NCBI RefSeq assembly: GCF_042100115.1
Contig: NC_091277.1
Location: forward strand, 2,480,001 to 2,544,000
Origin: Alternaria dauci
Lineage: Eukaryota; Ascomycota; Dothideomycetes; Pleosporales; Pleosporaceae
Direction: 5' to 3'
Length of the DNA: 64,000 bases
Part shown: one piece after another, positions 60,714 through 64,000 of the stretch
Position numbering within the stretch: position 1 is the stretch's first letter
Layout: each line of letters starts with the position of its first letter
Program-made: the position numbers and the translations under genes
The notes under the pieces: generated by a model
Databases searched by the model: none
What the model saw: the letters and a program-made list of their open reading frames with translations, nothing else
Told to the model about the DNA's origin: nothing

Positions 60714-61452
60714 GATGGGTGGGGCGGTGGATAGGTATTGTCGCCGGATGGCGGTTTGACAACAACTAGCAAGTCGACCGGCAATCAAGTTGGCTATATC
60801 CAGGCAAAGTCCAACTGGGGAGAATATATAGGGGGAGTTGCTGTATAAACAAAACTCAGATCTTGTGTGAAAGACTTGCCTTGATGAACAATGTACCTAC
60901 TGACGGTGAGGAATCTTATTTTACACAATGACGATGTAAGTGTATGAATACACAAATAATTGCTTATAAGCGGCGCAAGCGTGGTCTCACTTTATATTTT
61001 GGGCTTCTTCTTTGAGTTCATGCACCATGGTCGCTATCTGATTCACCCACTTCATCCCATGGTACTGCGATGATGACCCATATTCGCTTGAGCCAACCAC
61101 AACTTCCTTGATTCTTAACAATGTGAACGAACAGACTCTCGAATAAGAGAATTCGCGAGCAAAAAGATGCTCGACCTCATGCACTTACAATGTACTTGCC
61201 ACGGTAAAAGAGTGAAACAAAACCGTCGTGTCGAAAATGGGCATCGCTTCGCTTGGGAGTAAAACTAAGTCTAGACCGAATCAACAAGTACATATACGAA
61301 GAAACTATACAGCTCATCCGCCGGCATGTATCACTGTTACGGGATGATACTTTCACACATGCCGCTTCGGTTTTATATACAATGGTTCCCTTTCAGACTA
61401 CTCTTCTACATATACGAACCAACTTAACTACACCAAGCGAACATCAACAAAC
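60714..61452. promoter_or_regulatory. Divergent promoter, APH protein / zinc-ribbon protein
   Basis: 739 bp between divergent starts. A TATA-like TTTTATATAC lies at 61371-61380, about 73 bp before the right-hand ATG. Short open frames here are not supported. Confidence 0.5.
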
Positions 61453-62674: not shown

Positions 62675-63430
62675 TCAACGACGACCGCCCATCAGGTTGC
62701 TAACATCCATCATACTCATCACCTTTCTATCCCCAGGCCCACCCGACTCCATAGACCGCAACACCCTACGTATCCCCGTGCCATCCTGCCCCATCGACCC
62801 CGCCCCATACACCGCCTCAGCCACCATCCTCAACTGCATCGGCGCCTTATCATCCCCATAATGCGCAATTATCTGTGCCTTTGTAACATTTTTCCGCACA
62901 TTATTCTATTCCCCGCTCTCAGCAAACTTCTCGCATGCCGCCTAGTGCTCAGCGTCCTACCACGGCGGCAGTAAGCCCTTCCGTTGCTCCGCCTGGTCGA
63001 GAAACTTTTTGAAGGGCTCGATGCTTGATGGTTTGCTGGTGTAGATGCTGTTGGGCGTGGGCTTGTTCTCGAGCCTTATGTCGTCTTTGGAGCGCATGCG
63101 GAAGGCGTTGATGAGGAGCCTGTAAACGTCTTTCTCTGGACGGTCGTGCAGGTACTTGCCGTTATCTAGTCTTGTAAACGGATTTAGTACGTGTTTCTCG
63201 AGCGTCTTCGTGCGGGGCGCGGAGTAGTTAGTGCTGTGAGTTGTGTTTGGCGGGAAGCCGGAATTGGCATTGGCTTGTTGGGCGCAAATCTTCTTGTGTG
63301 TTTTCTAGTCTGCTTTCTGGCAGTCACGGCCACAGTATTCTGTGGTCTTGCATTTAGAGCATTGCTGGAGGTTTGCCAGGCCACAGTCCGCGGCTGTCTT
63401 CTTTCAGTTGGCACATGCCTTGGGCGTCAT
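62675..63430 (-). pseudogene. MYND zinc-finger protein gene with five in-frame stop codons
   Basis: From ATG 63430 (MTPKACAN) to the terminal TGA 62675-62677 one frame runs 251 codons with no frameshift. It carries stops at codons 9 (TGA, 63404-63406), 42 (TAG, 63305-63307), 158 (TAG, 62957-62959), 163 (TAG, 62942-62944) and 175 (TAG, 62906-62908). The MYND finger is plain: QQCSKCKTTEYCGRDCQKAD, stop, KTHKKICAQQ. The C-terminal part (APMQLRMVAEAVYGAG.MGQDGTGIRRVLRSME) matches a common fungal MYND-family tail. Codons 42, 158 and 175 stand where this family normally has Trp, so TGG to TAG is implied. Codon 9 stands near the second zinc Cys. It could be a decayed gene, RIP-type damage (CCA to CTA on the plus strand), or a gene restored by A-to-I mRNA editing. 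Confidence 0.85.
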
Positions 63431-64000
63431 GATGCGTATGGAGAAGAAGGATGCTATGAACTGGAAGATGTATGGGAGGGCGAAGAACAGAAGCACAAGT
63501 GCCGCGGAGATTTTATAAAAGCTAGCCATTGAATCATGGTAAATGTGGAGTTGGCGAGCAGGTGCCGTCTTATGTCGCGACGTGAAAGCGAGAAATCACA
63601 ATTGGCGTGATACGGTGGTGCTTTCTACAATGTACGCTAAAGGGAGGTGGGGACGAAGGTTCTAGCCGCTCACGTCCGCACCGCGAGGTCACGTGCTGTT
63701 GCAGCAGTCAACCCACCATCCGCGAAACTAGCAATATGCATATCAGAATACCGGATACTCTTCTCTCTGGGAAAGAGAACAGCCGAATCATGACAGCGTA
63801 ATCGCAGCTCTGCAATCAGCACCATTGCCATGGCAGCACGCCGTCTCGACTCGACGTGTCAGCCCCCACACATGATGATGACGTCATCTCTCTCACGCTG
63901 AACATTCCGAAACAAAAAGCATCGGAGTTGCAGTCCGCACCGAGTACACTCCTTACATGTCGCGGGATATGCGGGGGTGGGCAATGGAATCCAGGATGCG
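63431..64000. other. Region upstream of the MYND gene to the window end
   Basis: 570 bp with no supportable gene. A neighbouring gene may begin beyond the window. Confidence 0.4.

Follow-up and report, generated by a model that had tools for sequence, protein, structure and literature searches.

An interrupted MYND-finger gene of Alternaria dauci is probably a recent pseudogene with RIP-type mutations

Within a 64,000-nucleotide stretch of the Alternaria dauci genome (the window, i.e. the whole stretch that was analysed; it lies at C6:2480001-2544000, and the genome comprises 34.9 Mb on 10 contigs), a gene of the MYND-finger family keeps one reading frame through five stop codons, three of which are TAG at positions where tryptophan is expected. 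Such a locus could be restored by editing of its mRNA, could bear the marks of RIP or could simply decay, and the question is which of these accounts fits it best.

The original prediction described a single 251-codon frame interrupted by TGA (codon 9) and TAG (codons 42, 158, 163 and 175), and translation of the minus strand from 63430 to 62675 gave exactly this, 251 codons plus a terminal TGA; the four TAG adenosine coordinates were also right (codon starts 63307, 62959, 62944 and 62908). Upstream of 63430 the frame stayed open as far as an ATG at 63529, adding 33 codons (63431..63529, minus strand), and the whole interrupted frame covers 62675..63529 on the minus strand, i.e. 284 codons and the terminal TGA. 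The extension is hydrophobic (best 19-residue Kyte-Doolittle mean 2.23) and predicted to resemble a membrane anchor. Part of it aligned with the N-terminus of Alternaria ethzedia P0005, whose residue 10 falls at window position 63508, thus the gene proper comprises about 284 codons. The other two frames of the same strand contain 10 and 13 stops as compared with five in the MYND frame, the frame with X at the stops found a match in 279 out of 482 candidate proteins (E <= 0.001; lowest E 1.8e-134), and the PF01753 (zf-MYND) profile scored 38.5 bits against a cut-off of 22.7, with one TAG inside the match; together these results exclude a chance origin of the frame. An Rfam search of the 64-kb window returned 0 matches.

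To place the stops in the family, column counts were taken from 65 relatives (P0001-P0067 minus P0040 and P0044, which have under 228 residues); the protein searches comprised the best 120 of 270 and the best 120 of 279 matches, and the tests rest on the entries named. The MYND finger (63284..63415, minus strand, codons 6-49) is hit twice. Its TGA at codon 9 (63404..63406, minus strand; 42nd codon of the longer frame) had been described as near a zinc Cys, and it does lie in the finger; however, codon 9 is itself the second zinc Cys, with Cys in 63 and Tyr in two of the 65 relatives, and the interrupted gene therefore does not encode the full zinc-ligand set in an unbroken ORF. The finger Trp position is TAG at codon 42 (63305..63307, minus strand), and two further TAGs follow at codons 158 (62957..62959, minus strand) and 175 (62906..62908, minus strand). 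Trp occupies these three columns in 58, 63 and 61 of the 65 relatives, respectively, just as had been expected from family knowledge. The fourth TAG, at codon 163 (62942..62944, minus strand), was correctly set apart from them, its column holding Gln 31, Arg 8, Lys 7 and Trp 0 times among the 65. The loss of a zinc ligand at codon 9 and the column without Trp at codon 163 bear out the earlier view that these two codons argue for decay. Of the 61 columns kept in at least 90% of the relatives, the frame carries a stop in three and a missense residue in two, whereas the relatives depart at a median of 2. The same three stops and two missense residues were counted for the 49 columns kept in at least 95%, where the median is 1 and 92% of the relatives depart at no more than two.

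Downstream of the stops lies the conserved tail HYGD..APMQLR (62828..62863, minus strand). Profile matches in the PDB comprised 24 chains, all on the finger (profile positions 3-58) except ZMYND12, which covered 24-116. A predicted structure of the relative P0002 had a mean pLDDT of 84.2, and Foldseek with this structure gave 0 matches at E <= 0.001. Elsewhere in the window, a short dispersed repeat of about 150 bases (61021-61175) has partial counterparts at 20 further places in the genome (70-80% identity); it was not found to contain an inverted repeat.

Searches of the own genome found one other close copy, at C9:2484067-2484831, which is intact; the remaining nine matches were weak (35-52% over finger-sized stretches). 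The two genes share 72.6% DNA identity over 246 codons and 74% over 711 bases, with 75.5% in the best 400-base stretch. Their protein alignment ran without gaps from codon 6 onward (115/115 in a 115-residue piece), which upholds the claim of a frame without indels at the protein level, whereas the nucleotide alignment held two 2-base gaps that compensate each other around codons 148-150, so that 'no net indel' is the safe wording. With dN 0.18, dS 1.64 and a ratio of 0.11 (241 codons), the pair was constrained for most of its history. The C9 copy is 93% identical to an A. tenuissima protein among the matches listed. The genome has 17 PF01753 matches, two of them with a stop, namely the window gene and a locus at C7:214845 (TAA; frames look degenerate). 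The 200 kb near the end of contig C9 (C9:2404621-2602023) that surround the intact paralogue contain 19 of the 42 DDE_1 transposase matches of the genome. In P0122 (Pyrenophora teres PTT_06719) a C9-type MYND frame is cut near its end and continues into a DDE_1 transposase, as would be seen after a transposon insertion there, and P0003, C9-type like the MYND frame of P0122, is on 13 contigs.

In a tree of 26 sequences including fragments, the closest neighbours of the window gene were A. ethzedia P0005 and P0168, a fragment (support 0.89), and the enclosing clade (support 0.975) also contains A. alternata, A. burnsii and MG1 sequences. Unbroken frames within this clade are those of P0005 and P0004, but in the latter Tyr stands in place of two zinc ligands (positions 9 and 45). 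The other models are cut at different places: A. burnsii P0156 lacks the block with codon 42 and its match runs out near codon 155, the A. alternata model P0157 begins at residue 74 and is unlike the family beyond codon 188, the model P0172 of Alternaria sp. MG1 begins at residue 112, and P0160, P0168 and P0171 are also partial (the search for partial models covered proteins of about 63-201 residues). Judged from these proteins, gene lesions may lie behind the truncated models, some of which may instead reflect annotation choices. All clade relatives covering codons 42, 158 or 175 have Trp there, namely P0004 and P0005 at all three, P0157, P0172 and P0168 at 158 and 175, and P0171 at 42; the TAGs of the window gene are therefore not shared. 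Both the missing TAGs in relatives that cover the sites and the truncation of the clade-mates speak against a gene that depends on editing.

The changes on the window branch were classified by mutation context as inferred from the protein relatives. Residues unique to the window gene numbered 19: eight are explained by one CpA-type change, three by a CpG-type and none by a CpC- or CpT-type change, four by other single changes and four by several changes. Every C-to-T-type change was thus in CpA or CpG (11/11), and the lack of any in CpC or CpT is at odds with ordinary point mutation in a gene released from constraint. TAG at a Trp position and Met-to-Ile changes, however, have a CpA context by necessity, so five of the 11 context scores (three Trp stops, two Met-to-Ile) follow by construction, and the CpA/CpG share (11/19) did not differ significantly from that of the C9 control (2/7, p 0.38). 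No CpA change explains the TGA at codon 9, and three further single-step changes are likewise outside the CpA/CpG type. Trp codons were struck in three of four cases, more often than an even process would predict, since the remaining non-synonymous sites of CpA type were struck in five of 73 cases (one-sided p 0.003, in a test picked post hoc).

Missense change was hardly accelerated, with 16 window-derived versus 13 P0004-derived replacements; parsimony placed 20 changes, four of them stops, on the window branch and 13 on the P0004 branch. With P0003 as outgroup the window gene showed 63/246 and P0004 63/251 differences, and the share of the window gene was slightly above that of P0004 in nine of 10 outgroups and lower for P0001. 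Relative to the intact C9 copy, it had fewer differences in all seven comparisons outside the C9 group, and 72/245 versus 84/250 differences when compared with P0005. Given 16 to 26 missense changes, five stops were in excess under uniform mutation (p 0.006 to 0.03; 0.03 to 0.09 if four stops are counted). Over uniform or transition-biased mutation the range for five stops was 0.003 to 0.03, and under GC-to-AT bias 0.01 to 0.06; with only four stops counted, the excess was weaker (0.02 to 0.16). Under CpA-only mutation there was no stop excess (p 0.44 to 0.89 overall, 0.44 to 0.79 for five stops). Recent inactivation by few, clustered transitions is the simplest account of the divergence figures; comparable figures would be expected from a gene that is edited and remains under constraint, and editing thus keeps a marginal place in the discussion below.

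A RIP index over the locus had been suggested as a check, and it was not raised: TpA/ApT was 0.75 in the gene and 0.68 in the window, and the substrate index 1.32 and 1.21, respectively. The gene thus shows neither a raised product index nor a lowered substrate index, and RIP as judged by global indices was discarded. In the own genome, the sole close partner found is the intact C9 copy and not a mutated partner of about 80% identity or more, the level at which RIP is said to fade in the part of the source available (PMC8016269). RIP-type mutation nevertheless is present in this genome, as seen in one informative transposon pair of nine. Among the DDE_1 transposase matches, 35 of 42 hold stops (137 TAG, 66 TAA and 3 TGA). 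Pairs were formed from 12 of these 42 loci, on the plus strand and with, for each pair, the first match that reached 400 bases; three of the nine pairs were identical and five, at 65-80% identity, had transitions in all contexts and no clear CpA bias. The informative pair, L048/L051 (C9:2599488 and C9:2555589), is 96% identical over 621 bases and differs by 25 transitions and 0 transversions (18 CpA, five CpG, two not scored), TGG/TAG trinucleotide differences among them, which is a RIP-type signature. As a separate observation, a DNA cytosine methyltransferase gene on C7, which we take to be DIM-2-like, holds one in-frame TAG within its PF00145 domain with matching sequence on either side (L037:3693-3695 = C7:1027692-1027694, plus strand; best PDB match 9bap/9baq). 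In Zymoseptoria, another Dothideomycete, Dim2-dependent C-to-T change at CpA takes place in repeats during mitosis, and Dim2 was lost after amplification and RIP, as stated in the portion of the literature consulted (PMC8016269).

Altogether, we favour, at a probability of roughly two in three, a recently inactivated pseudogene, i.e. a second, dispensable and probably membrane-anchored member of the Pleosporales MYND-finger family beside the intact member on C9, with RIP-type mutations. The TAGs at Trp positions would have arisen by C-to-T transitions in CpA context on the opposite strand, and their source may be a RIP-type or cytosine-methylation-linked process such as marks transposon copies in the same genome; a Dim2-dependent mitotic process at CpA of the Zymoseptoria kind would need no meiosis. 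Mutation at the locus appears light, which would leave the global RIP indices unmoved. Since these indices are not raised and the C9 partner lies below the usual RIP threshold, we call the locus a recent pseudogene with RIP-type mutations and no proven RIP locus. The alternative originally offered to editing, RIP or decay, thus survives as decay with RIP-type mutations. The pseudogene is ordinary in kind, a known type of gene decay with stops mostly from CpA-type transitions, and from its sequence it most likely makes no functional protein. Counting against this reading are the over-hit Trp codons, the hardly accelerated missense change and the TGA that CpA-type change leaves unexplained.

A possible, though rather unlikely, alternative is plain decay, in which a dispensable paralogue lost its constraint and collected ordinary point mutations, with CpA at the Trp-position TAGs being merely obligatory and no special process at work. 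The unraised RIP indices, the intact C9 copy below the RIP identity range, the context without significant difference from the C9 control, the four single-step changes outside the CpA/CpG type and the five changes with built-in context all agree with this account, whereas the excess of stops over missense, the lack of C-to-T-type changes in CpC or CpT and the lack of a net indel do not.

Very improbable is that an intact gene merely looks broken because of a missed intron or an error of sequencing or assembly: the analysis rests on one assembly, and a block is missing here from the A. burnsii model P0156, but five separate substitutions without net indel are not the usual long-read error. As judged by reading, the stops lie in stretches contiguous in intact relatives, and an intron that spliced them out would remove conserved motifs; the intron reading was rejected.

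Sexual-stage A-to-I editing, which would turn the UAGs into UGG and restore a working protein, fits the three TAGs on near-invariant Trp positions, the hardly accelerated missense change and the excess of hits on Trp over other CpA sites. According to the parts of the literature drawn on, fungal editing favours U at -1 and hairpin loops and needs Tad2-Tad3 with Ame1, whose role is held to originate in Sordariomycetes, Pyronema being an independent origin (PMC11156358, PMC11087585, PMC7306014); lineages with Ame1 duplications are named there as worth checking (PMC11087585), and three DUF726 loci, predicted to be Ame1-type, were found in this genome with six matches (C9:1269152, C2:3723387-3724512 and C6:582549-583655). 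Not every premature stop is UAG, however, and the UGA at codon 9 would remain after any UAG editing, so such editing yields no finger; at codon 163 it would create a Trp found in 0 of 65 relatives. In folds of 31, 41, 61 and 121 bases the UAG adenosines fell in predicted hairpin loops in 2, 2, 0 and 0 of four cases, compared with 18, 15, 9 and 5 of 30 UA sites of the gene (the four are counted among the 30). The counts thus vary with fold length, and at none of these lengths was hairpin context enriched at the UAGs. In the accessible text of the sources, editing is reported in Sordariomycetes and a Pezizomycete, namely Pyronema (PMC11156358, PMC11087585), whereas A. nidulans and B. cinerea yielded none (PMC11156358), and the literature searched held no report from Dothideomycetes, a query on that class leading to a paper on Fusarium. 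Editing, once put forward as one reading of the TAGs, is thus the least probable of the explanations considered, and it is just as improbable that the amino-acid sequence is still selected despite the stops, with hardly accelerated missense and TAG-enriched Trp codons because UAG-to-UGG editing neutralised the changes. Were this true, it would give a first hint that Dothideomycetes edit mRNA A-to-I, the UGA perhaps being read through or the product lacking the finger, and the TAG in the DIM-2-like methyltransferase and the three DUF726 loci would be part of the same story.

If the pseudogene reading is right, TAG at conserved Trp positions is by itself no sign of RNA editing in fungi, as a CpA-to-TpA process writes the same pattern and transposon copies of the same genome are full of TAG; the window gene would illustrate fairly well how a decaying gene looks at an early stage, when indels have yet to arise.

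The gene resembles the premature-stop-correction (PSC) genes edited A-to-I in Fusarium graminearum, e.g. PUK1 and AMD1 (as given in the available part of PMC11156358), in its in-frame UAGs at Trp positions. Unlike them, it also has a UGA that editing cannot mend and one UAG where Trp is not expected, its stops are not common to relatives, and the fungus stands outside the classes for which the literature examined, as far as available, documents editing. With RIP-mutated ascomycete repeats it shares the TAG-rich interruption and C-to-T-type residue changes in CpA and CpG (five of the 11 so by construction), whereas its RIP indices are not raised and its partner is intact and 73-74% identical. 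Closest are the Pleosporales MYND-finger proteins themselves, with the zf-MYND domain (PF01753) and the HYGD..PMQLR tail: the X-masked frame has 69-75% residue identity to A. ethzedia J4E87_010762 (P0005), A. tenuissima AA0119_g12843 (P0002) and P. teres CFE70_010717 (P0003), equals them in length, finger and tail, and has the hydrophobic N-terminal stretch in common with P0005, but unlike these relatives it carries five stops and has lost the second zinc Cys.
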